A stretch of DNA of 64,000 bases, taken from positions 17,152,001 to 17,216,000 of the forward strand of contig AP031354.1 of NCBI GenBank assembly GCA_037833965.1. Reading direction: 5' to 3'. Position numbers and translations under genes: made by a program. This document shows positions 15,349 through 50,700 of this stretch, piece after piece (within the stretch, counting starts at the first letter, position 1; each line of letters begins with the position of its first letter). The stretch is from Marchantia polymorpha subsp. ruderalis. Lineage: Eukaryota; Streptophyta; Marchantiopsida; Marchantiales; Marchantiaceae. Below the pieces are notes generated by a model, which ran no database searches, had not been told where the DNA came from, and saw nothing but the letters and a program-made list of their open reading frames with translations.

Positions 15349-17228
15349 TATCCAATTTGATGGACTGCAAACAAGATCATTAAGACAAACTAGTTACTCA
15401 AGCTGTGCGGAAATGGTTTCTTCCAAGTCTAGTCGCCATTCACGGTCGGGTAAAGTACAATTTCGAGGTGATTCAACATATCCAATTCTGTGAGTGGGGA
15501 GTCCCAACTCACAGAATTTCGTTTAGTCCCAACTTGGGACAAAACGAGATAGTTTAAGAAGGCAAACAATTGGAAGTCTCTCTGTCACTTGGCGCCGTGA
15601 AGCAGAACTTTGGGGGAGCTATGGGACACCCAGCCTAAGCCTCACTTTCTTACGTTGCTCCAAAATTGGGAAGTGAATGGCCGAGCTGTGGCAGAGGAAC
15701 AAGACAGGGCACATCGTGTGGCATCGGCAGCAGGACCCATTGATCGCTGGTAGCGAGTGCACGCGTGGTGTCCGAAAAGCGACCCGTTGCCGAACTCGCG
15801 CCCTACACGAAGACGGCAGGACACGAGCGAGCATGAGGGTAAAACACGAAGGCGCAGTCCACTGTCGACAAGCGACGGTGGGCATTTTTACCTCGTCCCA
15901 GGTGTCACTAGGGCTGGAGGCACGACCTCAAAGGGCATGTCCAGGTAGTGTTGGAGGCACAACCTCAGAGGTCATGCCCCAGGGCGAGGGTAGGCCTCGT
16001 TCGCATTCTTCCCTATAAGTACATTAACAAATACGCTAAATGTACGTATTGTAATACAGGCATGCCTTGTGACCTTGAGAGTGGGGCATGGGCATGCCTC
16101 AAAATGTTTTGACGTGCCTCCAACTCTAGTCCCAGGGTGATTCTCGTTCGCATATTTCCATGAATTCATAGATGTATGTACAAACAAATTAATATTTATA
16201 TCTATAACTTTTTAGCAATTTTATTTCTAAGAATGATTTATTTACGAGTAAATATATTTCTGAATACTGAAAAGTATATATCTGAATATGCTAAATGTAT
16301 TTAGTGTAATAAGTGCATGGACCATGCCTTTTGACCATGGACATGACTCAAACTAATTTGCTGTGCTTTCAATTTTAACTGGAGCGAGTATCAGCGGCCT
16401 CCTCCGCGAAGGATACTAGGGTCCCCAGCGAACCTCCACGTGGCCCTCGTACCCAGGCTGCCAACTGTAGTCGGAGACGGCGGGGAATGCGGGCTCGGAG
16501 TTTGGGGGGATGACGGGAGGGATCCTTTTATCCACACACCAGCGAGCAAAACAAGAGAATTCTCGAAGTCGTCGCCGAGTATCCGTGCCTGGTCTGTAGG
16601 ATTGGAGTAATAGGAAAATATTTTGAGGCAGGCCATACCCGTATTACACTACATACATTTAGCGTATTCAGAGATGTACTTCTACGAAAATAAAACAATC
16701 TTAGAAGTAAAATTCTAAGAATGTTTTATTTTTGTTTAAAATGGCTGAAAATTTTTAGATATATGTATTAATTTGTTTGTATGGAAGCATGCAAACGACG
16801 CACTCGCGCTGGTGCATGCCCTTTGATGCTGTGCCTCAAACCCTACTGGCCTGGCTTCCTGAGGCCATTCTACGACGTGCTTCGATTGGCTGTGGCTCGA
16901 GAGATTCACTGCGTCCGGGAGTCGGATGAGAATGAGTAGTTTTCGAATGTCACGACCAATGCTCACAATATTCGGCTGCCCCCTTCTTAATTCGACCTGA
17001 TCTGTACAGTTCAATTGACTGTTTCATATTTTCCACCTCCGAGGCGCATTTTGCGACTTCTCGTCGAGCTTTTGTTCCATAAGATTCTGTGACGATATGG
17101 TAACGATATAACGTGTAAACAGGAATACTTTTTTTGGAAGGGCGAGATCGAGATGGTCATCACCAGCTTGGAGGCAGACGCTGGATTCAATCACGGAGCG
17201 AAGCATTTGGAGAAATAACGATGGCTGC
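15349..17228. other. Intergenic DNA after the truncated helicase (U1)
   Basis: Shared with U2 48016-49694. It contains a quasi-palindrome (15484-15518, one mismatch; perfect in U2) and several short motifs around aggcatgcct. U1 and U2 differ by small rearrangements near 15920-16220. Short ORFs are not recognisable. I see no gene. Confidence 0.6.
15484..15518. repeat. Quasi-palindrome, 17-bp arms with one mismatch (U1)
   Basis: The arms aattctgtgagtgggga and tcccaactcacagaatt surround a single g. One position differs from perfect symmetry. The U2 counterpart at 48153-48187 is perfect. Confidence 0.85.
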
Positions 17229-21196: not shown

Positions 21197-24100
21197 TCAA
21201 TTTCCCGACAAAATCCCAGTTCTAATACCTTCTTTCATGCACTCCTTGCACACCCATGCATGGCCACCTGATTCTACTCCCTCGTATTTCACCGGATACA
21301 ACTTGAAGATTTTTGCATAGTTAATATCCCCAAGAAGTTTCTGAATCCTCAACCATGCTTGTGTCAGCTCCTTGCTTTTCCCAGCTTTTACAACTGCACT
21401 ACGATCACCATCGCTAATGCCATCTAGTTTAACAATATCAGATTTTAAATCTGCCCAGTCCGGAATCGCTTGGCCCAACCCCAACGTCATACTCAGTCCA
21501 GCCTTTGCAGTATAATACAAGACTTTGTATGAAATTTCAATGGTTTTGGTAATCCACTTACGATTATCCAGATCCACGCGTATCTTCAAACCTTCTTGAT
21601 CTTCGACCACGTGAAACCCAGTCGCCGACTCACACATCAAGTGTAATCTAACGGTTTTCGCGACATGCATAAATGCACTCAACCTATAGAAATTGTTAAC
21701 ATCATCCGTAATGTAAGGTCGCTTGGGGGTTCTGGTCTGCTGAAACGATTGAGTATATCCGATAATCCTGTCTACTTTAGACACAAAATCACTCAGAGTT
21801 GACTGCAGTTGATGCTGCACAGAGAGTATCTGCTCCATCTTCGTCTCCAATCTCTGCATACCTAATCTAAACCTTTCATCAAAACCATCAAACTTTCTTT
21901 CCATCCTTCCCAAAGCATGTCGGAATTCATCCAAAGCATGTCGGATTTCACAAAATTCACTTGTGCTCGCCCCACTGGATGATCGTCGATTGGAGTCTTT
22001 CATAGTAACCATGTTCTCATTTTCAGGGTAAAAGTGAATCAAATCTTTGTTCACTTTGTTTACACCTTTCTGCAATGATCTCAATTGTTGGCTGTGGTCT
22101 TGATGAAATGACTCCAATGGTTGCATTTGCTTCTGAATGGTCTCATTCACAATCTCTTCCACATCACTCTTCCACAGCAACTCCCTCGCTCTTTCATGTA
22201 TAACCTCTGTTATGTGCCCTTCAATCCGGGGCCAAGGGTGCTCATAGTTGAACAACTCTTCCTCCTTCACCAAGTGAAACCTATCCGACGGATAATCCTC
22301 AAGTTTGTCATTGATGTAACAAATGAAGTTGGATTTGAGCTTCTCGATCAGAATGGCTCCTCTGCGATGAATCGGAATCAGCATCTCCACGCAACGTGTT
22401 TGGATCAAACCGAGCACTAACGCCACCCCGGGACAGCCTTTCGATGATGCGCAAAATGATATCAACTCCTGGACGATATGCCTCATCACGTAAGTAGTGG
22501 CCAACTCCCTTGATTTATAATCCGAGCATAACATCAGAACATCCACGTAACTGCGGGACGTTCCTTGCTCCAGATATATCTCGTGCCCATCAAGGTTGAG
22601 TTGCATATAATGTCGAGAGCAGATCATAGTCTTCTCGGAGACATTCATCTCCGATATCAACTTGCGTCTCATGAATATCTACAATGATACAGAATTTGGT
22701 AAATGTTAAGCGGCACATTTAAAAAATTAAATTCTACTAATGAAAAGGGAACACTCCATTCATCAAACATGAGTTACAATCAGACCTCAACGCATTCAAT
22801 TTTCTCGCAGTATCTTTAAAATCACCTCGAAGCATGGGAAAAAGCCAGCGTTCAGTGACATTGTTCTTTCATCTTGACATTGTATCCGGATGCCGACAAA
22901 CTTTGAAGCCCCAACCCTACTTCTCCATTTCTTCGACTTCTCGTCCGCCAATTCTTGAGGTATCTGTCCTTCAGCACTTTCATACTCAGGTACGAAGGAG
23001 GGAATGAAATACTGAAAAGGATCTTCCGCCTTGAAACACAAATCTAAATTGATAAGGATGTTCTCAATGACTTTCTTATCCACACCTATCTCTGTGTCTC
23101 TGTCCACACCTATCTTTACCTCTGGTTGCTTGTTCAGAAACTCTTCTATCGACCAAGCAAAGACATCCTCACTCACAAATCCGTCCTTGCTTGCGTATGA
23201 AACACTCGAGGTTTTTTTGAGAAAGTTTTGACCCACAGCTACCAGCTCACCCAATAATTTATTGGTGAGCCAATTTGGATCAACAATAATATAATCAAGG
23301 TTGGGGATAGAAACTATGGATCCAACGTCATTCATATAAGATGTGATTGACTTCATCATCTCTGAATGATCTTTGGCATGAGCCGAAGAGGTTGGAATGA
23401 ATTCTGTCAACATCTTTAAACAAAATTCAGAAAACTTCTTGGATTGCCAAAGAGGGCATCTTCTATTCTTCTTGGTGTTTTTAACCAAGAGGTACGAGAG
23501 TTGGGAACACAATTGAGGAACCCGTGGAGATTTTTTACTCAACAAGTCATCAAAGATCTCAAAAATGTGTTTTTTGAGAGGCCTAACTTGCTTCTTCTTA
23601 CGACCGTCCACATGAAAAAACTCTTGAAAAGGATGAAGATCCACAAATCTTGCAAATTTTTTTACTGAGTTTTTTCACTATGTTCTGAGCCCAATTCAAA
23701 GATTTGAATCTGGCTTTATCCTTGTGTGAAATCACAACAAGAACTTGTGGAAGACTATGTCCCGTAATCCTAGTGCAGGATGTGATGAAACTCAACCATT
23801 CCTCCAACTCTGTTTCAAGACAAGAACTTTCTTTGTACTTTTTTTCTTTCTGACAGAAGGGGCTATAAACAAATAAAAAAAGACAAAAATTGCTAGCTCG
23901 AGGAAAGAGCACACTTTGAAGGGTACGGAAAATATCTTGTCCTGCAAGATCCCAAATTGAGATCTGTCTTTCTTTATTGTTTTGCAAGAAGTCCACTTCA
24001 ATTCCTTCAGTTCTCCACTTGAATTTGGCCCATTGCCAACTTCTTCCATGGATCAGTGTTTGACGTAATTGAGTCTTGCCTATAAATTGAATACACATAA

Positions 24101-26016
24101 CCACAACAAATACAACTTGTTACTTCAGAGGTTTTTTCAGATTAATTGATACCATATTCTTTGAGTATGATAAACAAGAATGGAAAAAAATTTGAATTCA
24201 AATCAAATAAGTTTTTTTGAAAAATATCTTATTCAGATTTGAAATCACTAGTATTTGACTTTTCTCTTCTTATATTTTTGTTTTATTTTTCACACAAATC
24301 GAAATACATCTCGATTCATAACTAAACTTCATAAAGTAATACTAAATTTGAAATGTAAAACCTTAGATTGCTAGTTCAAAAAGGTGAGAGGTTACAGAGC
24401 ACGTTACCTGCTCTAGGAGAGCCGCATAGAAAGAGTCGACCAGCTTTTGCATCTCCAAATGCTAATCCGGCTTCTCTAAATACGGACATGTAGGCGGCCC
24501 GCTTTTCGTTCTGCTTGAGTGCCTCTTGAATCAACGCCGCCTTTCCGTCTATAGTCCATGAGGTTCTTGAGATATTTATTTCCTGGAGACTCAAGTTCAC
24601 TTGGAGTAGCCCCATCATGTCCCTGAACGTCTCTTCGTCCAGCCAGGTCTCACTCAAATCCAAGTGAGTGAGACTTGTGTTCCCTCGCAGGCACAAAAGC
24701 AGGTCCTTCCATACTCCCTTCCAAACATCTTCGCTTAGAGCACTTAATCCGAGTCTCTTCAGGACGCAAGTTTTTCCAGTTCTTCCGTTCATCGACAGAA
24801 TACCTTCCGGTCTATTGAGGTTGGAAATGCGATGTAATATACTCAGAGATTTCAGAGATGTGATTTCCCCGCGCAGTACCCTACCTAATAGGTTTAATGA
24901 TAACATCACTTCATCTTCACTACCAACATGGAGTGTAATCTCCAGAGTGGGGTCGTTGACTTCGGAGCTAGCAGAACGAGCAAGAGCTTCCACTGACTCC
25001 CAGGCTCCAACTTCATCAAAGCTGGATTCAAACCTAACAAGTATAGTAGTCGCTATGGCATTGTCACGTATGGCTTCGCCGAGCTGGTGCGCTTGCTCAG
25101 GCTCCATGACAAGTCGGTGGAGCTCCACTTCCTTCAATGATGGGTTGGAAATAAGAAGTTCCCTTAAACAGTCTCCGAGTCCTTCCATATACAATAGCCG
25201 AAGACGTTCAATGGATCGGTTGCGATCGTCTCCGGCCAATGCTTTCAGCAACAAGGGCCCTGCCCACTTCCCCACGTAGTCTAAGGTAAATTCTTTCAAA
25301 GACGAGCTCTTGATCAAAACCTGGGTCAGGATTCCAACGGTCTCGTCCTCCAGGTCAACCATATAGCCGCTTAAACGCAACGTTTCTAATAGAGGAGCAC
25401 TATTGATCATGTCAGCCACATACTTCACCGCACTCGAGTCCTCCCACGTTACCCCTAAATCGAAGTCCATCCACGCTTGCTCTAAATCTAAAGACTTGAG
25501 TTTAGAATCGGAACGTCCTTGCAGACCTGAGGCGAGATTCGAGAGACATCTGGCACTCAAACTGGCTTTCAGTTTTAACTCTGTTACGCTAGAGGAATTC
25601 AGAATTCTCCCCAGCTGGAAACACAAGCTCTCATTATCCGCATCATCTGCAAGGTATGTCCCAAAAACGATTATCTCTTCTAGAACGGTGCTCGACCTGA
25701 AACCTCTGAGAACTACCTCCCACTCGCTTGGCGTCAACCTCGATATATATGCCCCACAAATATTGCCCACGTTCAGAATCTCAAGGGTGTTGCAGCTGCC
25801 GATTGCCTCCAGCACTCGAAGACGCACTTTGTGTCGCCAAGTGCGTCTTGGCCACCCTATGACTGTCGAGGGTAATTCGTAATCCGGAAAGAACTCCCGA
25901 AATTCTGGCTTGGTTAAATCGGGAAGCTCCGTTATAGGCTCCCCTTGTCCTTCCAGACGCTGTACAAGGTCCTGGATGGCGGAGGGAAGCTCCGGTTCCT
26001 CGTGTGCGGAGTCCAT
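21197..26016 (-). pseudogene. TORNADO1-like LRR-Roc-COR gene, damaged copy (U1)
   Basis: Three exons on the minus strand, as in U2: exon 1 to 24408 (LRR part, ending …CGSPRAG), exon 2 24079-22826 (Roc and COR) and exon 3 22678-21197 (COR end, coiled coil and TRN1-type C-terminus). Splice sites match U2. Two defects are visible. The first ATG used in U2 (58645) is AAG here, leaving 26016 as the first in-frame ATG. Exon 2 has one extra base in a seven-A run (23657-23663 on the + strand), which breaks the frame between the G4 motif (SHKD) and the COR domain. The exon 2 lengths (1254 against 1259) agree with one inserted base plus two codons lost. The P-loop (GSPRAGKT) and DLAGQD survive. Since homopolymers are error-prone, the frameshift could be an assembly error, in which case this is a second working gene. 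Confidence 0.85.
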
Positions 26017-27861
26017 TTCCCGTGTCGCCAGTTCAGCAGCGTGACTGAAGATGGACGCACCTGCACCTTCCTTTCTCTCCTCCTCTCTCAGAGATTAAGA
26101 AACGTTTGCTGCTTGGCATGCGCGCGCCAAATGTCACCTGGGCTTCAGGAGCCCCTCCTCAATCCGAAGGATCGGCTCACCCGAAAAAAATTAACTTCCC
26201 GTCGCAGTGTCAAAACTTGTGCCCGCTGGGCATGACACTTCTTGCGACCTGCATGAAGAGAAAATTAAGATTAATCTTACCTCTGCAAGGATTCGGATCA
26301 GGAGCAATCACCACGAACGTAGGGATATTGTGCAAACTAGAAGTAAGACGCTGCTCGCACTCAGTGCTGGGCAGGACAAGCGATGTGAATCAAAATCAAA
26401 GCAGATAACCAATATTCCGGTTCCAAAGCAAATTGTAGAGAGTGTGCAATGGGGACTTTATATCTCTCGGGGAACAAACCTTTTGTGAAGTTTAACGGAG
26501 AGAGCTGTTTGATTAGCACCGGTGACCCAACTCAGTGGACAAGCTAAAAGCTCTGCAGGTGAATCTGAAATCCAAAAGAGTTGTTTGATTAGCTCTGGTG
26601 ACCCAACTGAGTGGACAAGCTAAAAGCTCTGCAAGTGAATCTGAAATCCAAAAAACTGGTTCGTATCGATGGTGCGATGTGCATGCAGAATGTCAAAGAA
26701 AGCATGGAAACGCAGATATCTCAGATGGGAAGTACTCTACCTTGTGGAAAACTCCATGTACAATCGGACTGGGAGAATGCGAATCTAGCTGCATCAACAC
26801 CCACGGAAACACAGACCCTCCTAAGCGTAGCGAGTAGAAATTTGCAGCTTACTCATCAGATACTCTCATTATATTGTCTGGATGATCGAGGTCAAGACAA
26901 CATACTAACACAACACGCGTGTTCCTCCAAACTCGGAGTGATTGGAAAATGTTCTGAGAAGGTCAGAGTAAATCTTGACTTTGTTGTGCAAGTGAACGTG
27001 AAAATTGATGAATGCATCAGTGTGCTGATACACTCGATGTCGTCACGCTGAGCACAGAAATTTAAAGAATCTTTGATCTATTCAAGCAAGTGGATGTATT
27101 CTTACAATTGAGAGGCACATGGGTTGTCAGCTTGGTGTGTAAAGTCTCTTGCGCGTTTTTCTTGCTTTGACGATCGGTACAGTAATCTACATTACTCTGC
27201 ATATAGCGTAGGTTCAGAAAGTGATAAACTTTGTGGGAAATCATTTTTCTAATCATAATGTCATGGGTACAGAGTACACGAGGACTCGCGGTCTTCAACT
27301 GCTGGTATGATTGTTCTTCTACCTCGACTGTCAAGCATGCACAGTTCTAACACCAGTGTCTGGAGGTCTTTCAACCTCAAACATTAAAATAAAATCAGAT
27401 TTCGTCCGAGCTAAGAGCAGTCCTGCTTGTTTATCACGTCGTTTAGAACACCACAGAACCAGCATGATACTTGCTAAGGTCAACGTAAATCCTCTCAAGA
27501 ATTTACGTTCTTCTAATCTGCTTGCAAGTGAAGAAAAACTTTGTTGTATCGATGAGATGAAAAATACCTCATATGCTAAATTTTAGAGAACAATGATTCA
27601 AAACTCCAGATGAACATCTCGTTTGAAGTCTAAAGGGTAAGACAAACTTACATGGAAACTGCAATACCTGAAATATTGACTCAAATGAAACAAGTATTTC
27701 TGCAACTTTTGCACTCGTATGCTCATATCATAATTCCAAACATGTGAGATAAATAGATGAAAGCACTTTGTTCAATTGATAAAATGGTTGAAACGCAAAA
27801 GTATTAATTCATGTCTTTAGTACTCTCTCTTTTGTGTAAAGCAAATTCACATGAATTGAAA
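26017..27861. other. Upstream region of the TORNADO1-like gene (U1)
   Basis: Shared with U2 58658-60429. It should contain the promoter and 5' untranslated region of the minus-strand gene. A 76-bp tandem duplication lies at 26502-26653. The plus-strand ORFs here (for example 26611-27051) change frame or length in U2 and are not supported as genes. Confidence 0.55.
26502..26653. repeat. 76-bp direct tandem duplication (U1)
   Basis: Two units starting gagctgtttgattagcac and gagttgtttgattagctc, period 76, with few differences. The same pair exists in U2 (59074-59225), so it predates the large duplication. It lies about 500-640 bp upstream of the TORNADO1-like start codon. Confidence 0.9.
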
Positions 27862-28847
27862 GTTACAAAATTTAAAATTGTGATTTAATACCTTTCTATT
27901 ATATGTGTTGCATGTTTAGCATCTTTATTTGATGGTACCTCAAATCTGAAAATGTTCAGTCATAAACAATGTGTAATAATTTGTTTCTGACAAGACATAT
28001 TCAATGAAAGTTACAGTTTAACATTTTATATAAATTTTATTCACAGCTTTAGAGATTTTGACTCTAAACTTTTTCAGCTGTTTTGGTTTTTTTTAATTTT
28101 TTGATTCTTGGACAGTTTATTTAGATGCATCATCTAGATTAATGCAACTGAATAATTCTCAAATAGTACAACTACACAAATGAGATAATTAGTGGATGGT
28201 TACATGTTTACTTGTTCCAACTTTATAACTGAAGCTGAAACAAGGAGGTGATAATAACATTGTAAGTAATTATTTCAGACTTTTACTTACATGCCTACAC
28301 ACAAAAATCTTGATGATGCACGATACATTCAAGTTGAACTAACTCTGAAAAGATCAAATGTTGATGAAAGAATCAATGGATAATCTCCAACAATGACTTA
28401 GTCTCTCGCTAAAGTTAAAATGCAACCAAATATTAGATCAAAATATGTCATCTTACTTTACTTGACATGTTTTTTTTCAACTATACGTATTGATTCTTTT
28501 TTTGGGAATTCTCTATATTGGTGAATTCTGCCGCAGGTGTCCATTGGCGTACTTGTAGGAATTATTTACTATACCCTAGGGATCATTTTTCTCACACCAG
28601 CCTACACATAAAAAGTGTCTTGCATTCACTCCGATGACTACACAGCTATCCTGCAACAATAGTTGGCATTAACTCTTAGTGCAAGATCTTCTAAAAAATG
28701 CACAATGTAATTTTTTATGACTCGGTGCTCTAGAAATTTATATATATTTTAAATTTATCAAGAATCCAACTGGAAATTATTCACTACATTATTTTTCACT
28801 CTCCACTTGTATTCAACTTACTCGTTGATGTTGAGTCTGGAGTACTC

Positions 28848-28897
28848 ATCCACATGTAGGTTACATGTGGATGGTGGGTTACATGATGTAACCCACC
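28848..28897. repeat. Two abutting perfect palindromes
   Basis: The first hairpin is atccacatgta / ggt / tacatgtggat (28848-28872). The second starts at the very next base: ggtgggttacat / g / atgtaacccacc (28873-28897). All arm pairs match. This is the same back-to-back architecture as the U1/U2 junction at 30676-30729. Confidence 0.95.
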
Positions 28898-29541
28898 GTC
28901 CACTTCATAAGAATCAAGACACGATCTGCTCACAGATACATAAGACCTTCTCCAACTTATGCCATGACAGTATGTAGCGATCATGCAGAATGCTACAGGT
29001 TGTATCTTCACAGCAATCTTCACTTGTACGCAAATGTCTTTTGCTTTTTCAAACAGCCAAGTCAAGTATGTTTCAGGAGCAGCATCTTGGCTGGCTTGTT
29101 TATAATTGTTAACAGTTGCTGTGATATTAGATAATCTGATTTTTAAATGGAACGATACACATTGGAAACTATTCTCGGAACATATTTTTTATTGTATTGT
29201 GGTATCTTGCCAAACAAGTATTACGCGCAGTACAATGCCTAAATTGGAGAGTAAAACAAAAAACTAAATCACTTTACCTCTGACCCTGATCTCCGTTGTA
29301 TATTCCAACGCATAAGCTTCTTTATATCTTCGGCTTATTCCAAGGACCCATAGGAGTAACGTGGAACTTATAAACTCCAGTTCACTCCGCAGAACAAAGT
29401 GAAATGCTCGGCTGGATTCTTTTAATCTTTATTATGGGAACATACTGAACAAGTACAACGCACAATACAATGATTCAACTGTAGAGTCCAACCTTTCACG
29501 CCACCGCTTTATCTTCCTTTAACACACATTTCAAGCCGACC

Positions 29542-29574
29542 CTCATCTAAGTTGAAATATTCAACTTAGATGAG
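29542..29574. repeat. Perfect palindrome, 15-bp arms
   Basis: The arms ctcatctaagttgaa and ttcaacttagatgag surround ata. Two related sequences in the window (near 29290-29320 and 62030-62060) are not palindromic here: they read approximately ccaacgcataagct and tcaacgcagaagct where the right arm lies, so the right arm appears to have been rewritten as an inverted copy of the left. Confidence 0.9.
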
Positions 29575-30675: not shown

Positions 30676-30729
30676 CCGATTCCAAGGTCCTTGGAATCGG
30701 GGCCCTCCACGAGTCGTGGAGGGCCCCGA
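30676..30729. repeat. Twin palindromes at the U1/U2 tandem junction
   Basis: The end of U1 (ccgattccaagg) is followed by t and then its inverted copy (ccttggaatcgg), 30676-30700. The start of U2 (tcgtggagggccccga, 30714-30729) is preceded by g and its inverted copy (tcggggccctccacga, 30697-30712). The two hairpins overlap by four bases. The native left edge of U1 (4473-4488) lacks the left arm, and the native continuation of the U1 end in U2 (61313 onward) lacks the inverted copy. The palindromes were therefore made at the joint. Confidence 0.95.
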
Positions 30730-31663: not shown

Positions 31664-33016
31664 TAGTAGGCGTACAAGTCATCGTTAATGATCTAATCTT
31701 AAGATATTCACAAAAGATAACTCGCATCTTATCTAAATGATCAATGCTTTATCTATCAGAAAACACCAAGGTTTGACATTTGCTTTTTTGTATCATGCAC
31801 ATCATATATTCTCATTCAATAATAAAGTGATCAATCTAAGATTTACCTTAACTTGATACATCTTTTCTACATTCGTTACAAACCGAGATGCAATTTCATG
31901 ATTGCTAAAAGATTGCTACAAGTTTCTTTGCATTTTGTTAGACTTCTCAAAAGAATTGGAACATATAAATATTTGGTTAAATTTTTCAATTTCAAACTTC
32001 GTTCAACTCGAACTCATTTTGTGGGAATCTTTTCTACACCATGTTTGTATCTGTGATCGATCATCAAATTGAAAAAAGTACTCGATGTGTCGTGCAAAAT
32101 AAAGGTTTTCTTTCTTTTGCAACCCACATCAAGATAAGATATATTATAGTAAGATAAGATAGTAACCCATCATGAGAGACACAAATATGCGTCGAAAACG
32201 CTCACAACTTCTCCAAACCATTAAATTACTTGAAATATTCTATTATGTCTTCGCTTATTTATGCATCTTGTAAATGCCAGAATGATCGCATAATTTGGTA
32301 TTTAAATTCTTTATATTCCACATTCTTTTCGATGAACATATAAGTTTCCTATTCTTGTCAATCGCTAGTTCTTTATTTGTCTGATGCTTCCTTCGTTAAA
32401 TTAGCGTCACAAATGTGTTCATAGTTTCATTAAGTATTGATAGTTCTTGCATGTCCATCACTATAGCCAAACTATATGAAGTGAGATAAAAAATATTTGA
32501 TATTCTCTGTGGATGTAATGATTTGAAAACTATTAGCAGCGACATCAAGGCTAAAAAATCCATGTCCATCTTTTTGTTCCTTCACTCTGAATTTTTTATT
32601 AAAGACATGTTCAGAGCTTTGACTTGGTATTATTTTTTTCTGCATGTCTTTGAATATGATAAGTTAGTTTTATATCGAACAACCCAAAATTAGTTTCCAA
32701 GGTTTAGTTTATCCTTAGTGCCTTCTGGGCCTCCAAAACATTATGGTGCATTGAGTGACTCAATCAAACATGACAACTGTAGCTAAAAAAAATATTAAGC
32801 AATACTACATCAAAATGCAAACAAGTTTCTTTATTTTCATATCTTAATCATTATTGAAGGACTAAATACCCATCATCTAACCGGAAAACTATACCGGTAG
32901 CTAGCTATTGCATATTGCAGTAGTAACGTGAGTTTATAAGAAAATCCCTATGTGATGGCTTAACAACCCTGTAAAAGATCAAATAATTTCAAAGGAATGC
33001 CACGCATTCTATCTGA
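31664..33016. repeat. R1 copy c (within U2)
   Basis: Third copy of the AT-rich R1 segment, near-identical to 5986-7351 and 1-1363 apart from small indels (for example a short loss near 32930). No coding sequence is seen. Confidence 0.85.
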
Positions 33017-34488
33017 AGAAGTTCATATGCCATTTTTGACCTAAACCCTATATTGTGAAGTTCTAGTCTAATTTCTGACAAATAACCAAAGGTAAACGAT
33101 AACATGCCCCCCTATAACCTAGAAAACTCACAAAAGGAATTTAGGAGCTCAAGCAAAATGATGTTTGTAACAACTGTACATTTCACCGTCTTTGTGGTCA
33201 CGTAAAACTTGGATGTTTTGTTTAGCACAAAGGATGATTCGGCTCTTCTACTACGATGTTTTTATATTTAGTAACATAGAAGTATTAAATTTACATATTG
33301 TGGCAAAATGTTAATAAACATAGCTTCATACCTCGCGTTCCAAAATTATGAAGAGTAAGTTCAATTCCTCATCGGTCATCAACGTTGTATGATTCTAATT
33401 ACTTGCAATGAGTACCCATTGCCTACCTTTAGATATGCGTAACACCTTTTACAAAATTCACCCATTCTAGCAATAATATTTTTTTTTTTAAAAATATCCA
33501 TAGTCTATAAGAACTTCTTCCTAAAGTTTATACACTGAACACGGTTTGATATAAAAATAGATTTGAAGTAAAAGATATTATGAGTTTATTTGATATGATA
33601 GAAACAAGATTGTTTTTTGTAAAAGTTTAATATAGAAGATAATTTAAACACATTACTTTCTTCTATTTTCAAGATAATAATATGATTAATCATTTCTGGC
33701 CTCAGACGTATTTGTATATAATAGAAACAAAAAAATTTAGTAATCTGAAACACGTGAATCAAATATGACTTATAATAAAATGTACTTGTTCATTCTCTTC
33801 ATTACGGAAGTGATCTGCTTGAGAAGGGAGACGTTTGCAGATGGGAGAAGGGGATTTTTGTGCGTAGATATTTAAGTATAAGTCATCTCTTCCATGACAT
33901 TTCCTCTTCTCTAGTGTTAAATATTGGAACAAATAAAATCTTCCTGACTACCGAAAGAGGTTTAAATACTTTTCTTCAGTCAAGCCTGGTGAATCGATCA
34001 ATATTTAAGTACTTAACAACGCGCAGAAAATTGAAGCTATAAATCCACGAAATGAAGTAGGTTATCTTCAAAGGCAGATACATGATGATTCATGCAAACA
34101 TTTTAAAACACTCATGCAATTTACATGTAACGTACCTTTGGGAATCGAAAACTGAACCCCCGCCCGTTATATCTGCCGTTATAAGGAGTTTTCGATCGAA
34201 GGTTTTATACATTTCTCTGCAATGCTATTTCAAGCCCTCCATGTTCTGTCACTGGCAAACATCTTGTTAATTGGAAGCTTTGACTACACATTGGTAGGCC
34301 AAACGCAAATGTTTATGGAGAGCGATCTTTATAGTGTAACATCTCGCAGAATGCATGGCAATTGCCTGGCACATGCACCTAGTGCGAATTCCCAAACTTT
34401 TTCGGTCAATGCATGTTTACAGCAAACTGAAGCACGGAAGCACTGAAGCACTGTAAAGGACCTCTTCATTCTTCTGGTGGAGACTGGA
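33017..34488. other. AT-rich intergenic DNA of U2 left of the insertion
   Basis: Matches U1 7352-8805 with scattered substitutions and small indels. No gene is recognised. Confidence 0.6.
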
Positions 34489-34493
34489 TATCA
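34489..34493. repeat. Target-site duplication, left (tatca)
   Basis: Identical to 37970-37974 and present once at the empty site in U1 (8806-8810). Confidence 0.9.
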
Positions 34494-35503
34494 TGTAATA
34501 ACCCACTAAAGGCTAAAACTGCAATATAGTGGTAGAAAGGTCGATCCCACAGGGACAGAGGAACACACAGGGTACAAAGTGTCACGTTTTAACAGACTAT
34601 TGAGGAGTTTGAATTCTCAGGCAACTGTCACTTCCAGAAATACTGCAAGTGTTCACTCGGAGCGCACTCGGAGGTCGCACAGTGCAGCGTAACACACACA
34701 CACACACACACCTGAAACTACAGAAACACAACCCAGAGATCCGTTAGGACCTCTACTTCAAGATTTCAGGGGGAAAGTCTCTCGCGAGCACACTCGGCAG
34801 AGCTGCGGGCAGTGACTTCCAACTCCGGCTTTTACAACACTTCCACTAGCTTGCTGCTAGTGTAGGAAACCCGGTTTGGACTGCCTACTTCGGATCGAAG
34901 TCACTCCTACGCGGTGAACAACACTCTCAACTCACAAAACGCGCAGAGAACACAGGTCCGCACTGAAGGACTCACTGTGAAACATTCCAGTAACACAACA
35001 ACAGTCTATTGAAGAGTTTGAATTCTCAGGCACTTGTCATTCCCAGAAATACTACAGGGGTTACCCTCAAGGCACCTGCTGCAGCGTAACCTGAATTTAC
35101 AACCAAGGCTTACACGAAGTAGCAAAACTTCACTTTGGCATTCAGGGGAAAAATCCCAAGGGAGTACAATCAGAAAGAAACACTCGAAGGTGTAGGGGCG
35201 AAACTGTTCAAGTATCTAACTAGTCACTGGCTCTGAGCATCGGCAGTCACCCGCAGGTGCAGTTCCGAACTACTCAAGTCTCTAACCAATGGACTAGCTC
35301 TGAACATTCGGCCGAAGGCCTTCAGCTACAAAATGCGGAACGCTAAGTTGTAACTCCTCGTGCGTGGTGACAGAACTCAAGGACACAAACACGCAAAGGA
35401 AATGGGTTCCTGATCTGCACTTCTGATGGGAAAGAACCCCAGGCAAAACGCCTGGAACTATTTTATACCTTCTAAGTCCTACCTAGCACTACACTGCACT
35501 ACG

Positions 35504-36724
35504 CTACACGCCTGCACGGAACCACGCTACACTACACTCCGCGGAACCTGTACTACGTCTCCTGCGCGTCTGACTGCCGCGCACTAACTCCCTACCCTGC
35601 CAATCTTCCGCTCGACTGCGCAGTCCCAAACGCTGCAACGCCGCGGACACCTCCACTTCGAGGGCGGACATGGTATCCTGTGCCTTCGACAGAAAGGCAT
35701 CGAGCTTCTTCGCTACCTTCCGCCGACTCCTACTGTCGCCTGACAACAACCCGGCTGCGCGCAATTCAAACTCACGCAGTGTGAGTTTCTCCTGCGCCTT
35801 CACTTCCCAGTGGGCGTAGCCCTTGAGACAGTGGGCGACACGCCTCGCCGTCTCCACCTTCGTGCGATCCGCCTCCTTCCTGCGATCCTCTTCAATTATC
35901 ACTAATTGCGATTCGGCTTCAGCACGTTGCGCTCTCAATTCGCCACACTCTGACTGTAACCAGCGGATTAACTCTTCATCCGCCTGCCGTGCGAGCTGAC
36001 ATTGTTCCAACAACCGCGTCTGTCGCACGAGCTCCTCTGACAAAATCCGATTCTGGGCCTGCTCAGAAATGAGTGCTTCCTTGACCTTCACCTGCTCCTT
36101 GGTGAGCTCGTCCAGTTTCTCATCCTTCATCTTCTCGGAGTGCTTGTAGAATTTCTGATTAAGCTTATACTGACCCCACAAGCATGCATGCTTCTCCTTC
36201 AATTCCCTCAACTCCTGGTCCACTCTAGCTAATAGCTTGCTGGTGTGGACTTTAGTGCGAGTCCGCCTGCGCACTAATTCGATGTAAGATCCCGGCTGGA
36301 GTGGGTCGGCGTATTTATCGACCTTGCGATCCAAGTACCTCAGCAACGGAATCACCTGCTCGGAGAGCGCCGCCGCCGGCGCTCCAACAATTTCCTCCTC
36401 CTCCTCCTCGGTGTCTTCTGCTCCTGACATTTCTTCCGTGGAGCCTTCGTCGTCATCATCCGAGTGGAGAATTTCAGTCGCCATTGATTGCGTCGGCGAC
36501 TGCCCCGAGTGGGGCTGCCCGAGTTTCTTTCTCTCTCGGCAAACTTTAATCGCCCTCAATTCCAAATCACGCGCATTCACTTCTCCCTCAATCAACAAGA
36601 AATCTCCTGTGCGACGACGTCGAGAACGTTCAGCAGCCAGCAGATGGATGCGCGCAGCGCGCACAAGAGATTGGAATCGCGAATTCAAGAATGGGACGTT
36701 CTCCGCCGCTCGGTCGAAGGTCAT
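35504..36724 (-). CDS. 406-codon coiled-coil ORF inside the LTR-type insertion
   Basis: A long ATG-initiated frame on the element's sense strand. The N-terminal ~80 residues are basic, followed by an acidic Ser/Asp/Glu tract (about 85-120). A long region (about 165-330) is rich in Leu, Glu, Lys and Gln with heptad-like spacing, as in a coiled coil. The C-terminus is Arg-rich. I see no protease, reverse transcriptase, integrase or zinc-knuckle motif. A 406-codon frame inside an LTR is unusual. It could be a gag-like or accessory ORF, or a captured host fragment. No family is recognised. Confidence 0.5.
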   Translation of the reverse strand: MTFDRAAENVPFLNSRFQSLVRAARIHLLAAERSRRRRTGDFLLIEGEVNARDLELRAIKVCRERKKLGQPHSGQSPTQSMATEILHSDDDDEGSTEEMSGAEDTEEEEEEIVGAPAAALSEQVIPLLRYLDRKVDKYADPLQPGSYIELVRRRTRTKVHTSKLLARVDQELRELKEKHACLWGQYKLNQKFYKHSEKMKDEKLDELTKEQVKVKEALISEQAQNRILSEELVRQTRLLEQCQLARQADEELIRWLQSECGELRAQRAEAESQLVIIEEDRRKEADRTKVETARRVAHCLKGYAHWEVKAQEKLTLREFELRAAGLLSGDSRSRRKVAKKLDAFLSKAQDTMSALEVEVSAALQRLGLRSRAEDWQGRELVRGSQTRRRRSTGSAECSVAWFRAGV

Positions 36725-36829
36725 GGTCGGCTCCTGCTCGTGAAGAACGTCTCACTTGATGGCCGCGCCGGCTTAACGCTAGAACGGTCTTCGCTCTCAC
36801 GCGCGGCTTCACGCTCCGCCGTCGTCGAT

Positions 36830-37560
36830 TAAACTCTCACGCTCGAATTGGCGGATTTGAACTCCGCGAGCGTATTACCCCGCGGACATGCGGGCGTAGC
36901 GCCGAAGGCGAGTTTTCCGCCTTGCGCGGTACACTTGTTCGTACCGCCCCTCGGCCAATCCCCCTCTGCCTTGACGCGTGTGTCCGCATGTCGGACAAAA
37001 GTTCAACTCCTGCCTGTACGCAGGCAGGAGCCTCGGCGGATTCTCCGCCGGCGCGGAACTTGAACATCCTCCTGTGCACAGGCGTTCGCCTGTGCGCAGG
37101 CGAATTCCGTGCGCGGCGTCGCGCTGGCGCGGAAGGCGTTGACCGTGGTCAGCCGTCTCCGTCCAGTCTGTCCGTCCCTTGTCTCTTCGTCGGCGCTTCC
37201 GCCGCCGCAACTCCGTCCGTCCAAGAGCGCATCCACCCGTGCCGTCCGCATGGTCCGTACCGATTTGATTACTCTGGCGGCTCTTCCTCCGTACGCGGCG
37301 CGGTGCTGGCGCGGAAGGCGCCGTACACGTTCTACCTCACAAGGCGCATTTCTTGGGCCCAAGGCGGATTTTCCGCCGACGCCGAAGCGCCTGTGCACAG
37401 GCGGTCGCCTGTGCGTAGGCGGACTTCGCGCCTCTCCTAACCCTACTTCGCCTGTGCACAGGCGAACGCCTTCGCCCGCGCATAGGACAAAACTTGATTC
37501 CCCCTTCCGCGTAGGCGGAATTCGCGCCGGTGGCGAACTCTTTCCGCCGTAGGCGACCGT
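36830..37560. repeat. GC-rich palindromic tract within the insertion
   Basis: Repeated short palindromes built on gcctgtgcacaggc and cgcctgtgcg/taggcg recur near 37071, 37389 and 37447, with related forms near 37012. This GC content and CpG density contrast sharply with the AT-rich host DNA around the element. It lies upstream of the ORF in the element's sense orientation and could be its promoter or structured leader. Confidence 0.6.
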
Positions 37561-37969
37561 CTCCGTTTCTTCCAATAGTGATAACTCCCTAAGTACTCAT
37601 CCGTTCCAAGCGTTCTTGGGCTCGTTGGAATCAGTGCGTCGAGCTCTTTCCAACGGGACCCTAACTTGGTCAAGGCGCCCGAGGGTTGACCTAATTATGG
37701 AGGGTTTCCCTACCGCCGCGGACATCCTCCGAAGGCGGGTTTTGCGCCTTGCGTCGTAGGGGTCCTAACTGCAGAGCTCGCAGGGAGGGTGGTGCCTGTC
37801 CTTACTGCTGCACCCCAAATCCCAGATTCTACAAGATCCCTCGAGAATCCCCGCGATCTTCCGGATTCACTCCGTTTTGATGTACCGAAGGCTATTTACA
37901 ATGCTGCCAGGATACAGTTTTCCAAAAATGTTTTAATTTCCTCAAAATTGCCAAAAGTGGGGTACCACA

Positions 37970-43020: not shown

Positions 43021-46000
43021 ATGTTTCAGGTGGAGCGCTGGCTGGGAGGAGAAAGTCGGAAGCATGGTTCTCCATTACTATTAGATCGTTTGAATGCCAG
43101 AGCTCGGGAGCGGGCTGCTCTGCTTCCGCTTAGAGAGAAAGCGGAAGGTTCTTCTCCAGGTAACAGGGAGAACGTCTCGAACAAGGATTCTGATCCTGCA
43201 CTGAGTAGAGATGAAAGCAAGGAGGGAGCCTCAGAGGTTGTAGGTGAGGAAGAATCTAATGCAGGGAGCGAAATTGAACCTCATACTAGGCGAAAAAAGC
43301 GAAAGCAACACCAGGAACACAAGGCAGAATTGGCAACCTTGATTGACCACGAAGCTCCTGATTCTGCTGTAAAGGTCAAAAAGCACAAGAAGCTGAAAGT
43401 CTCGGATACGACTGAAGAACATGTATTTCCTCTGGAAGCTCCTGCTTCTCCTGGAACGGAAGAACAGGAAAGGAAAGTGAACGATACTTTAACAAGTGAA
43501 GATAATATAGAGCGAGCGGAAGAGACTTCTGCAGCCGACATCGACAGAAGTGTCCCGGAGCTGGTTGAATTTCAAGTGTCCAAATTGGAGAAGAAACGAA
43601 AGAAAGAAAAGAGGTTGAAGATACGAAGAGGGGGCAATCTGGAACCAGGTGATGAACTGGTTAACGCAAGAGGCGTATCTGGAGAAGTAAGTCATTTTTG
43701 CACAGTCTCAGTATTATCTTTATTCATTCATATCCTCAACCGGTGATCGAGAAAGAGATGCATAAGTTCACAATTTGTCTGAAAAGGTGGATGTGATTGC
43801 AGATGGTGGCCCTTGGAAACAGATCAATGAAGAGGAGCCTAACAGTAAGTCCCTAGGGGTTCCGGATGAGGATGAGGAGCATGTAATTACAGAGAACACT
43901 GACGAGTTGAATGCACTCGGAGCGGACGATACTTCTCGGAATGAACCTGAATTTCCACAATTGAGAGGGATGTGGATAGAATCATGGGTCGTGATGTTAA
44001 TTTGGTTCCAGCAGAGTCGCAAGACCACGGGCCGGTGTTGCCATGGATGCGTGATCCGCTTGATATAGATACCTACAAGGCCACCTCCCTGAGACAAGTG
44101 CCTGGCTTGGACACCAGGTAGCCTTGCCGTCCGTCCGTTTGTAATAATCTTCTATCTGCCCAGCACTTGAAGTTTGTCTCGATGTCCAGCCGATGCGTTT
44201 CTCTTGGTGCGTTTCGAGTTACATTGCAGACTTCAAGATGCTTTCGAAGGCAGGAATACAGTCGTTGTTTCCGGTACAGATGGCCGTGTGGCACGAGACT
44301 GTGGGCCCTGGTTTAAGCGAGCGAGACGTCTGTGTCAGCTCGCCAACAGGCAGTGGCAAAACACTATCTTACGCATTACCCATCGTCCAAAAGGTATCGT
44401 CTCGGGTGATTCGTCTTCTTCGAGTTCTCGTAGTGCTCCCGACCAGGGATCTAGCTCCGCAGGTGAGGTTCTTTTGAAATGTAGTTTGGATGGTCTTTAT
44501 GTTGAGAATCTCTCCTATTTCGGGTCTATGTTTACTATTTGATTGTACAACTATGAGATAGAAAGGAGATCCATGCTGATGTATAAAAGTTTGGAATTCC
44601 TTGTTCACGTGCTTCAAAGATTCTGCTCATTTTCTGTACAGGACATTTCAAGATCGTGAAAACCAGGTAGTTAGCGCTACTTTAATCGATGGCTTTTATT
44701 GTTATGTATCCTCTAGTACCCATATTCGGCTGGCTTTCCAGTTCCTATATATCCGCTCAAGCTTCTCTTAAGGCCTTCAACCTTGGTAATCTCGTTTCTT
44801 CAGGTTAAAGCAGTCTTTGACACCATCGCACCAGCAGTTGGTCTCTCAGTGGGACTAGCTGTGGGACAAACGTCAATTGTAGCTGAAGCGGCTGAATTGG
44901 TTCAAATTCGTAAGTCGATGGTCCACAGTTTTGGAAAATCTGTGGCTGCAACTCCCGACCTTGCCGAAAGCCAAGTTGACATACTTGTTGCAACTCCAGG
45001 GCGCTTGATGGACCATATTCGAAATACGAAAGGGTTCACTCTTCAGCACCTACAATTTCTCGTGATTTTTTTCCGTGGTGAAACTATTGTCTTTGTTTCT
45101 CCATAGCGTCATCTTTCTACAAAGGCCGTGATGAGGCCAATATAGATTCTCTAAATTGTTTTATTTTATCAATTCGAACGATATGTCACAGAGGTTAACG
45201 AACTATTGGTTTGTCTGTCAGGTTGTTGATGAAACAGATAGATTGCTACGGCAATCTTACCAGGATTGGCTGCCAAATGTCTTGGCGTGTGTTTCTGCTT
45301 CTGGCCCGATGTTGTCTGGACTAGCGTTTCGAAACTCTCATCCTGGCTCAGTCCGCACCATTAGAAATTGGTACGGAATGTCCGGATTATATTCACATGG
45401 TTTGATCCTCTCGTTTGCTTATTTCTGTTGCTTCTGGTCATTTCATATCTATTCTCATAATATGAAAACCATCGTAATACGTCGCTGACACCCTGAGGCA
45501 AAAGGTGGACGCAACTACATGAATAATGAGCTTCACTGTAGAAAAAGCTGGGCATTAAGTTTTTAGCGATTACGTGCAGCTGTCTAGAAAGAGGAAATAG
45601 AGGCACTGCACTCCCACGATTGATGAAGATGGTGTTATCGGCTACCTTGACGAGAGATCCAGCAAAAATTGCACAACTTGGTCTTTTCTGCCCCATATAT
45701 GTGGCGCCTGGTGCTGCTGGCAACCGGTATCAACTACCAGAACAACTTAAGTCTTACAGGATGGTACGTATCTCTGTTCACACACGTTGCCACCATAACT
45801 TGTTGCTGACTCAATTTAGTTCACGTAGCCTTGGAGCTTGTGTTTGTTCAAACCTGCATCGCATGATCCGTAACAGAAATTGTTGTCCTGAACATCTTTG
45901 CAGGTCTGCAAACCGGGGGAGAAGCCCTTATATTTGGTAGCACTCTTGCAACAGCTTTGCAGCCAAACAACCGTTGTTTTCACTGCTTCTGTAGTGGCTA

Positions 46001-47128
46001 CTCATCAACTATATACTCTGCTAAAATGCTACAAAGGATTGTCGTTCAAGGTGCTTGAGTACTCAAGCTTGCAGCATTAACAACCCCGCAGGTTTTTCCA
46101 ACACGTGTGTGCTTTTGATGGGTTTTGTAGACCAAATAACTAATAAGTATCTATTTTTACATACAGACCTCTAAGTCGCAGGTTATTTCCTCTTTCTTAT
46201 GATTTATTGAGCTTGGGGTGAATGCCCAAGTCGGTTTCGTTCGTTTGTTATCCGACATTCGTGGCTGGCTTCAATAATCCTAATGACTTGCCTCTATATT
46301 ATGCTGTACAGTAAAGCGTTGGCAAAATTCCAAAATGGCCAGGCACAAGTGCTCATTGCCTCAGATGCGATGACAAGGGGTATGGATGTGGAAGGTGTTG
46401 CAAACGTTGTCAATTATGATATGCCTGTGTACGCAAAGACCTACGTCCATCGTGTTGTGCGCACTGCTCGAGCCGGACAGCCCGGGAGCTCTTATACTCG
46501 TCTTCGGAAGAAGGAGGAGGAGGAGGTTCGCTTTCTGAACATGCATAAACCACAAAGTAGTTTGATCTACATTCCATGTAACAAGTTCAATAGCGCTGTA
46601 TCCGCTTCCTCCCATGTTGCTCTGGCTTATTCAGCGCACACCATCGTCTTGTTGTCTTTGTTTTTTCGTTGTGCATAACGGCCTGCAGTCATCTAACCCG
46701 CTATGTGCGTTGATCTGTAAACCTGGGGATGTTTGCGCAGGTACGACACTTCAAACAGATGTTGAAGAAAGTCGACAATAGCAAGTGCAAGGATTATTCA
46801 CCGCCGTCATCTGTCACCGAAGAGCTTTATGAGTCTTACACTGAAGGTACGCGTCTCACACAGGGTGTGGTTTTCTTTCTGGGCTGAAGGCAGCTCTGTC
46901 TAGATAACCACCTGTGTCTGATATTGTACTCAATCGTAGAGCTGCTTCGGACCAATGCAATGGGACGTGATATTTTCAGAACTTTCGAACCTATGCTGTC
47001 TTTGCTTTGTTTTGGTTTTCGGTACTTCTCTAGTTTCATACAATTACCTTACAGTGGGAATGTTGCATTGTGCTGGACGTGCAGCTCTGCAGAAACTGAA
47101 GCAGATAACAGCAGACGAAGCAGCATGA
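43021..47128 (+). pseudogene. RH1: RH1/DDX51-type DEAD-box RNA helicase, full-length locus but broken (U2)
   Basis: Members of this family act in large-ribosomal-subunit assembly in the nucleolus. Ten exons can be traced: 43021-43686, 43787-44117, 44230-44462, 44804-45061, 45222-45370, 45580-45763, 45904-46091, 46312-46525, 46741-46846 and 47085-47128, with GT/AG borders. Visible motifs are Q-region FPVQMAVWHE, I SPTGSGKT, Ia PTRDL, Ib TPGRL, II as DETD (normal for plant RH1), III SAT, V RGMD and a damaged VI (HRVVRTARAG for HRxGRTARAG). The N-terminus resembles DDX51 (LLLDRLNARARER). Frame breaks lie between about 43958 and 43990 and at about 44244-44252, and both are shared with U1. A TAA at 46078-46080 stands where the family would read on. 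Because of shared lesions the gene was probably dead before it was duplicated. An unseen small intron could explain the first break. Confidence 0.88.
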
Positions 47129-47708
47129 ATTTCACATGGCAGTCGGACGCAGACAGAAGGGGAAAGTAAAGTTACTGGGCCGGACGAGCTTTTCATACGA
47201 CCACGAGATATCACTCAGCGTTTGGAGTACGATGATCTACTTATCTCTAGGTTCTGTCCAATTGAAGAAACACTGTGTGAACAATACGAAGAGCTGGTTG
47301 CTGATCGGATTCATATCAGTACTTTCATTGTGCAATCCTAGTCCAGGATTATAATAATACGGTTTCGTTTCCACTTGAATTCACCCGTGAGTCGAGTAGC
47401 TGGGTTCCTGAGGAAGGTTCCGGGAGGTTCCCCTTCATGTTTTCTAGTTCGCAGCTTAGGCCCGAACGACCGCATGTAGGAGAAAATTGCCACACCCACT
47501 TTGGTTGGCGGCGTCTGTTTGTGATGTCAGCTGCGCCAGATTTCTTCAGTAAAGTTTACATTGATTGTGAAGATTATTTCCCATGGAGTGCTCGATTGTG
47601 AGGAGGAGTTTCTCTGAGTTCTCTGTTGAATACTCTGTTGTCCTGTACAACTTTTACATGAGACGAGATAAGCTCAGTGCACTTCCAGGCAGTAGAGAGC
47701 GGCTAGTT

Positions 47709-47746
47709 CTTGTCTGGCATCTATACCCATATAGATGCCAGACAAG
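47709..47746. repeat. Perfect palindrome, 17-bp arms, 4-base loop
   Basis: Arms cttgtctggcatctata and tatagatgccagacaag around ccca. It lies in the part missing from U1, so there is no second copy to compare with. The very short loop argues against a normal plant miRNA precursor. Confidence 0.95.
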
Positions 47747-48152
47747 TCGTCTATTATCGTCTCAGGATCTTGGATATATATCTTAGACCTGAGGCTTGTC
47801 GGGATATGACAGGTAACAGGTTGTCGAGGTAGACGAAAACAATTTTACAGATGTCTGACATACAGATACTCCTCAGATCCACAACGCGACGAAGCAACGC
47901 TCTCAGTCACATCAGTACGATCTGTCCTCAGTACTACATAGATTGCCTCACCACTGTCTATGTCGTCGCTGTCCACGTAGCCCACGTAGGGCTACTCTTG
48001 AGCTTTACGAAAGAAACTATCCAATTTGATGGACTGCAAACAAGATCATTAAGACAAACTAGTTACTCAAGCTGTGCGGAAATGGTTTCTTCCAAGTCTT
48101 TTCACCATTCACGGTCGGGTAAAGAACAATTTCGAGGTGATTCAACATATCC

Positions 48153-48187
48153 AATTCTGTGAGTTGGGAGTCCCAACTCACAGAATT
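48153..48187. repeat. Perfect palindrome, 17-bp arms (U2), with a second one beside it
   Basis: Arms aattctgtgagttggga and tcccaactcacagaatt around a single g. Seven bases further lies a smaller palindrome, gtcccaa/c/ttgggac (48195-48209), which reuses the core of the first. U1 has the same pair with one mismatch in the large one. Confidence 0.95.
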
Positions 48188-48620
48188 TCGTTTAGTCCCA
48201 ACTTGGGACAAAACGAGATAGTTTAAGAAGGCAAACAATTGGAAGTCTCTCTGTCACTTGGCGACGTGAAGCAGAACTTTGGGGGAGCTATGGGACACCC
48301 AGCCTAAGCCTCACTTTCATACGTTGCTCCAAAATTGGGAAGTGAATGGCCGAGCTGTGGCAGAGGAACAAGACAGGGCACATCGTGTGGCATCGGCAGC
48401 AGACGGACCCATTGATCGCTGGTAGCGAGTGCACGCGTGGTGTCCGAAAAGCGACCCGTTGCTGATCTCGCGCCCTCCACGAAGACGGCAGGACACGAGC
48501 GAGCATCAGGGTAAAACACGAAGGCGCAGTCCACTGTCGACAAGCGACGGTGGGCATTTTTACCTCGTCCCAGGTGTCACTAGGGCTGGAGGCACGACCC
48601 CGGGCGAGTCTCGTTTGCAT

Positions 48621-48650
48621 TTTTCCATACAGGCATGCCTGCATGGAAAA
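48621..48650. repeat. Near-perfect 30-bp palindrome without loop (U2 only)
   Basis: ttttccatacaggca is followed directly by tgcctgcatggaaaa; one arm pair (a/c) does not match. U1 has only the tacaggcatgcct core in different surroundings (near 16057), so the extended arms are specific to U2. Confidence 0.9.
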
Positions 48651-50307: not shown

Positions 50308-50700
50308 TTGGCCGGGCGCAATCTGCACGAGTCGGAGGACCTGTTTTCATATACACTATGAAGAAGACTGCCACGGTTTAGAATGGTACATGAATCGTAT
50401 TTTCCATACGTCTGCGGACCATCGTCACAGTTCTGAAATGTTCATGAGCCGTATTTTCCCGACCATGTTCGGTATCAGTTCGCTCCCTGGACTATCCTTG
50501 TAGTAGAGTAGCCAAAAAGTCAATAACACCCAGTCACAAAAACGATGGATTTGTTCCTCCGTCTAAATCATTTCCGACGCCTTTGTTTCATTATGGTGAT
50601 TTCGATTCGAAGAAGGAAGGCGGAATGGACATTGGGAAGACAGCTTGGCATCAGATCGTATTTTACTTGGGCAGGCCATCTACTAGTAAAAGTTAGTTTA

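Follow-up and report, generated by a model that had tools for sequence, protein, structure and literature searches.

A twin-hairpin joint between tandem 26-31 kb units in Marchantia polymorpha resembles a hAT-type excision scar with flanks from two sites

Results

Two tandem units and their native edges

The DNA analyzed here (the window, 64,000 nt in all) contains a tandem duplication whose units we placed by self-BLAST of the window. The units are approximately 26-31 kb long and 93-98% identical by block (aligned columns). They are listed here with the two native sequences that match the edges at which they meet.

4466 to 30687, forward strand: tandem unit U1, the left copy, whose right edge forms the left flank of the joint (self-BLAST blocks against U2)
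30714 to 61318, forward strand: tandem unit U2, the right copy, whose left edge forms the right flank of the joint (self-BLAST blocks against U1)
61310 to 61325, forward strand: native edge matching the U1 end; reads CCGATTCCAGAGGAGT, without an element and without an inverted copy
4466 to 4480, forward strand: native edge matching the U2 start; CTCGTGGA in single copy (4472-4479)

At the right limit of U1, BLAST homology extends to 30684, and the AGG at 30685-30687 equals the native copy after a 1-nt gap. At the left limit of U2, homology extends to 30709 across a 2-nt gap.

The units share a duplicated, apparently multi-exon gene on the minus strand (21197-26094 and 53815-58705), which encodes a Roc GTPase domain and matches COR-A weakly. 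No other block of the duplication is as diverged as the one that holds its copies (93% identity over 9.5 kb). A 3.5-kb segment of U2 with DEAD-box helicase sequence (Helicase_C; 44467-48012) is missing from U1, where the ends meet at AG; its absence is perhaps a deletion that broke the U1 gene. A PDB sequence search with the helicase exon returned DEAD-box helicases. Among the 16 ORFs that we scanned with Pfam, Helicase_C and Roc scored above the cut-off, Ras did so in one ORF, and COR-A fell below it. An insertion found only in U2 (34493-37969) has TG...CA ends, lies between two copies of TATCA (single in U1), and looks like an LTR-type element. A 63-bp tandem array at 50697-50869 has 2.7 copies in U2 and a single copy in U1. 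Finally, positions 1-1370 hold a third, partial copy of the unit sequence, matching 5986-7359 at 94.8% and 31664-33024 at 95.8%.

Two back-to-back hairpins at the joint

The joint between the units occupies 30676-30729. The sequences CCGATTCCAAGG-T-CCTTGGAATCGG and TCGGGGCCCTCCACGA-G-TCGTGGAGGGCCCCGA overlap there by TCGG. The joint consists of the following parts.

30676 to 30700, no strand: left hairpin of the joint; perfect arms of 12 nt (30676-30687 and 30689-30700), centre T at 30688
30697 to 30729, no strand: right hairpin of the joint; perfect arms of 16 nt (30697-30712 and 30714-30729), centre G at 30713
30697 to 30700, forward strand: TCGG common to both inverted copies; putative microhomology for joining two opened ends

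The original prediction was that the end of U1 is followed by its own inverted copy, that the start of U2 is preceded by its own, and that the native counterparts have neither. The arms are indeed perfect over 12 and 16 nt, around 1-nt centres. We found no inverted copy at either native edge, that is, from 61310 onward, where the native U1 end reads CCGATTCCAGAGGAGTTG, and from 4466 onward, where the native U2 start reads ACGAGCCTCGTGGAGGG. The second of these is the native left edge of U1, at which the same twin was looked for and no inverted copy was found. The joint is confirmed as real in the assembled sequence as given.

Both centre bases are complements of native bases. The left centre T (30688) is the complement of the next native base, A (61323, after a 1-nt gap at 61319), a match that depends on allowing that gap against the native copy. 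The right centre G (30713) is the complement of the preceding native base, C (4472). Folded as single-stranded DNA, the joint forms two hairpins (z -6.6; 0 of 200 shuffles as good), and the native 66-nt stretches fold like their shuffles (z -0.46 and +0.78). Searches of the window against Rfam (gathering threshold) and for tRNAs gave no matches, so the hairpins correspond to no curated RNA family.

At its native left edge (4466-4476), U1 has a small odd palindrome, ACGAG-C-CTCGT (centre 4471). Odd palindromes whose arms measure at least 5 nt occur at 0.18% of window positions, and this one may be due to chance, a small footprint one base out of register, or a primer for snap-back synthesis.

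Palindromes across the window

The original prediction called the long inverted additions striking. They are far above what shuffled sequence gives, but the window contains other twins besides the joint and, as the original prediction did not mention, abounds in palindromes. It has 7 perfect palindromes whose arms are at least 12 nt and whose loops are at most 8 nt, against an average of 0.05 over 20 second-order Markov shuffles. When mismatches and loops of up to 10 nt are allowed, 21 palindromes score at least 10 (0.97 per shuffle, 30 third-order Markov shuffles). Eleven score at least 12 (0.07 per shuffle, 30 third-order Markov shuffles), a set that includes two U1/U2 counterpart pairs and is thus 9 independent palindromes. 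The spacer separates two kinds. Of the 21, the 7 that have a 1-nt spacer all sit in back-to-back twins. The four perfect 1-nt-centred palindromes whose arms reach at least 9 nt all do so too; with arms of exactly 8 nt, four odd palindromes lie outside twins. Outside the twins, palindromes scoring at least 12 have spacers of 3 to 6 nt (29542, 47709, 11141/40282 and 16687), and those scoring 10-11 have spacers of 0, 2, 3, 4, 7, 8 or 9 nt.

The single palindromes with 3- to 6-nt loops indicate that a second palindrome-making process acts in the window. For instance, there is a single perfect palindrome with 15-nt arms and a 3-nt loop at 29542-29574, and two diverged paralogues (61881 on, and 29186-29376) lack its right arm. 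The paralogues suggest that it probably arose by fold-back copying or a template switch on a TTGAA/TTCAA stem.

One may ask whether the joint, too, was made by replication template switching (fork stalling or break-induced), with short reverse-complement tracts copied there during the duplication. The window is rich in palindromes, the paralogues of 29542-29574 lack its right arm, and template switching is reported to make perfect hairpins (PMC8794818). At the joint, however, three switches would be required, and the process predicts neither 1-nt complemented centres nor the 8-bp repeats of the sister twins described below. We regard this origin as quite improbable.

Twins are not a general mark of breakpoints at this locus. 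The palindrome list contains no twin at the other large U1/U2 breakpoints that we inspected (1370, 5018, 8810/34493, 15343/44467, 15927/48598, 18281/50743 and 27857/29799); near one of them, at a distance of 22 bp, is a single palindrome (48621-48650). The partial copy at 1-1370 stops at 1370 without a twin palindrome, which makes the array more than a simple pair.

Two sister twins carry 8-bp repeats

Besides the joint, the window has two independent twins of the same shape, one of them with a counterpart in the other unit.

28847 to 28903, no strand: twin 2; tips 28860 and 28885; inferred 8-bp target-site duplication (TSD) CATGTAAC, 7/8 between flanks
48153 to 48216, no strand: twin 3, U2 copy; tips 48170 and 48202; inferred 8-bp TSD GTTGGGAC, 8/8
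15484 to 15547, no strand: twin 3, U1 counterpart; tips 15501 and 15533; 7/8

Twin 2 lies within a stretch found in U1 only, and its inverted copies overlap by 7 nt, of which 6 match. The inverted copies of twin 3 do not overlap. Because the twin 3 scar is present in both units (15484 and 48153, with a base difference), it is older than the duplication.

When the flanks of each twin are compared with every hairpin centre base read as its complement, an 8-bp repeat appears on both flanks at 48153 (8/8) and at 28847 (7/8; CATGTAGC and CATGTAAC). Since A is retained in the inverted copy of twin 2, the left flank probably acquired the odd base later. Of the repeat lengths 2 to 14, only 8 fits well in these two twins when the tips are complemented. 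With uncomplemented tips, the 8-mer fit falls to 6/8 in twin 3 and 5/8 in twin 2; with the tips ignored, the inner six bases of the same repeat remain (6/6 and 5/6, respectively). At equal base frequencies an 8/8 match is expected by chance at approximately 1.5e-5 and a match of at least 7/8 at approximately 3.8e-4, before correction for the choice among 13 lengths and among three ways of reading the tips. We rejected 28861 as the centre of twin 2, as it gave 6/9 at best.

A scan of the whole window with a hAT-footprint model of repeat length 8 gave the three sister-twin rows scores of 36, 30 and 26, and 10 shuffles reached at most 11. The same scan at other lengths from 3 to 12 gave at most 16, except at length 3 (25), where almost no repeat is demanded. 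Other matches to the model scored 13 (56811-56823), 12 (29535-29558) and 9 (56434), to be read against shuffles that reach 11; that at 56811-56823 was not counted because the sequence is AT-rich and poorly conserved in U1. The scan missed the joint because it demands 6/8 in the repeat. The joint's own two 8-mers, TCCAAGGA and CTCGTGGA, agree at 4/8 only, so that the hallmark of a hAT footprint that we looked for there, the same 8-mer on both flanks, is absent. The joint is consequently not the scar of one element leaving one site.

These twins bear on two further explanations of the joint. One is an assembly or library artefact, with the joint or its inverted copies absent from the organism. 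Inverted chimeras are a known artefact of whole-genome amplification according to PMC13265396, but the same scar form occurs in both U1 and U2, in copies that differ by a base, and an artefact is not expected to follow an 8-bp logic; we consider it very improbable. The other is that a mobile double-hairpin element was inserted at the joint. Double-hairpin elements have been described, in accounts of organelle genomes, and the window reads as nuclear, judging by its apparently split Roc-domain and DEAD-helicase genes. Twins 2 and 3 are not inserted elements, since their middles are the reverse complement of their own flanks beyond the 8-mer. We rejected a double-hairpin element, the least probable of the readings, because the three twins are unrelated in sequence and each is built from its own flanks.

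Comparison with hAT excision

hAT transposases nick one base into the flank, and the 3' end so made is joined, at the border of the element, to the opposite strand. A flank hairpin then reads r1..r7, the complement of r8, and r7'..r1'. The centre bases in the window follow this rule at 6 of the 6 tips in the three twins, four judged against the partner flank and two against the native edges, with the U1-side tip counted by allowing the 1-nt gap.

Like footprints of hAT elements (Ac/Ds, Tam3, Hermes), the window's scars have palindromes on either side of the joint that are centred on the complement of the element-adjoining base, an 8-bp target duplication in twins 2 and 3, and inverted copies that overlap (microhomology) at two of the three twins. 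Ac/Ds footprints are described as palindromes whose centre is the complement of the base adjoining the element, and microhomology between opened ends as common in Arabidopsis and yeast footprints (PMC5873905). The same source cites Lazarow 2012 and Huefner 2011 for long palindromic Ac/Ds footprints in yeast and Arabidopsis. Hermes leaves its flanks capped by hairpins, and Kat1, a domesticated hAT transposase, makes hairpins by nicking and attack at a site that is mostly 1 nt away from where the terminal inverted repeat (TIR) starts (PMC4763223). The likeness has limits. Unlike in a simple hAT footprint, the 8-mers of the joint's two flanks differ, and no element is seen here. The arms are 12-18 nt on both sides, within the 20-nt maximum given for Ac/Ds in yeast (PMC5873905), whereas the commonest plant Ac/Ds footprints are changes of 1-2 bases (PMC3744419). 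The long arms are therefore unusual, although only long footprints are detectable in this analysis.

The explanation named first in the original prediction was snap-back synthesis; the second was hAT hairpins opened off-centre. We consider the first as a double snap-back (synthesis-dependent or theta-mediated end joining), in which both 3' ends fold on themselves, extend by 12-16 nt and join over TCGG/CCGA. As in such end joining, the joint has inverted copies of both ends with a short microhomology between them. The 4-nt TCGG overlap is compatible with microhomology joining in both models, ACGA..TCGT around a 3-nt loop at the native U2 start could serve as a fold primer, and the palindrome at 29542-29574 looks like a product of fold-back copying. 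Pol theta is described as extending stem-loops from two terminal base pairs to give a new end usable for joining (PMC11292364), and yeast breaks as acquiring inverted insertions, mostly of 5-34 bp (PMC11724301). However, snap-back synthesis predicts that the native loop GCC is kept on the U2 side, where the joint has only G, and by eye there is no clear primer on the U1 side. It also leaves unexplained why the 1-nt centres complement native bases and why the sister twins carry 8-bp repeats. Snap-back is thus weakened for the joint and now seems unlikely, and the hAT alternative is supported because the two sister twins carry 8-bp target-site-like repeats and complemented centres, which hAT excision predicts and snap-back does not. 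We favour the hAT alternative over snap-back as the probable one.

Search for the element and for small footprints

A scan of the window for TIRs with 8-bp repeats revealed no convincing hAT element. The best match is an 11/12 TIR at a repeat of which the window has three homologous copies (256-1165, 6241-7152 and 31919-32829); we do not claim it, since 1 of 10 shuffles also reached 11. This segment of approximately 0.9 kb is flanked by CAAGTTTC and has the inverted ends TTTGCATTTTG. It is a possible transposon with 8-bp target repeats, on a statistically weak match. Pfam scans of 16 of the 29 long ORFs (exons of at least 150 aa) showed no hAT domain, and no element was seen at either outer edge of the duplication.

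Small footprints were sought at the 15 gaps of 6-10 bp among the 32 U1/U2 gaps of at least 6 bp. Three of the 15 reach 7/8, compared with 187 of 2000 random places at 7-8 matches. As this set is not above chance, we make no claim of small footprints; short ones are indistinguishable from chance in one window. One gap (34447-34454, within 34435-34466) is a candidate small hAT footprint of the classic shape: U2 has AGCACTGA followed by AGCACTGT, and U1 has a single copy.

Discussion

A hAT-type scar with flanks from two sites

We class the joint as working like a hAT footprint with flanks from two sites, not as a simple excision footprint. The form of the joint, its tip bases and the neighbouring twins make it likely that this is a hAT-type (Ac/Ds-like) excision scar whose flanks came from two different sites, with the duplication made by alternative transposition and the element at the joint later lost. 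Since the scar is flanked by the U1 end and the U2 start, the duplication itself was most likely made by alternative transposition.

The transposase, the nuclease, the identity of the element and the order of events that we infer would be as follows. A hAT transposase would nick one base into the flanking DNA on each side, and each flank would be sealed as a hairpin, its last base joined to the complement of the element-adjoining base. A host nuclease would then open the hairpins at distances of approximately 12 and 16 nt from the tips, so that self-complementary 3' tails remain. Pairing of the tails over TCGG/CCGA, followed by fill-in and ligation, would give the order end1-tip-end1'-end2'-tip-end2 that the joint has. 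In reversed-ends transposition (RET), an element would be left at the joint with unlike 8-mers on either side and would subsequently be lost. This affects the original view that both inverted additions were made at the moment of joining. Their absence from the native edges agrees with an origin at the joint, but the timing is uncertain because under RET they would have formed when the element left, soon or long after.

RET of Ac is described as producing tandem direct duplications in which the middle element may have a matching 8-bp TSD on one side only, and excision of that element joins the duplicate copies through a footprint (PMC3744419). The locus resembles such a maize duplication in having two direct copies and non-matching 8-mers at the would-be element ends. 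The direct copies do meet between unlike 8-mers, which chance also gives. Where RET leads one to expect an element or a footprint, the joint has no element and a footprint-like twin hairpin. RET predicts an untouched target at one outer edge and, at the other, the original element, its 8-bp TSD or a footprint; neither edge has an element, and the small palindrome at 4466-4476, off by one base, may be a footprint. Unlike this locus, where the element is absent from the joint and the outer edges, the natural maize cases keep elements or pieces of them, and their repeats measure approximately 0.12-1.26 kb compared with 26-31 kb here (PMC3744419).

Two other routes also involve such elements. Direct joining of hairpin-capped flanks from sister chromatids would give the same product, although the products of sister-chromatid transposition are given as inverted duplications and deletions in PMC3744419. 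Recombination between two element copies, followed by excision, is possible and needs loss of the element at both outer edges.

Transposon-made duplications without transposons

How often cut-and-paste transposons produce tandem gene duplications is difficult to judge because the element can leave. A search of 26 hAT families in maize is described as yielding three small natural duplication cases, and its criteria would miss duplications whose element had excised, as that study itself says (PMC3744419). We put at even chances the broader proposal that hAT elements, now vanished, produced the 26-31 kb duplication with its Roc-domain gene by alternative transposition, and that the joint twin, with its unlike 8-mers and complemented tips, is a readable fossil of this event.

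This type of mechanism is already known. What is added here is a probable hAT-type hairpin joint at a natural 26-31 kb tandem duplication with no element visible. Among the titles and abstract openings returned by a literature search, none named a twin-palindrome scar at a natural tandem duplication joint, which is not proof of its absence in print.

The scar follows a simple rule, with two abutting 1-nt-centred palindromes, complemented tips and an 8-bp register, which makes it possible to search any assembly for such scars and to test duplication joints for them. If our reading is true, this lineage opens transposon hairpins unusually far from the tip, and such twins would let genome scans detect transposition-made duplications whose elements are gone, which are beyond the reach of the maize search.
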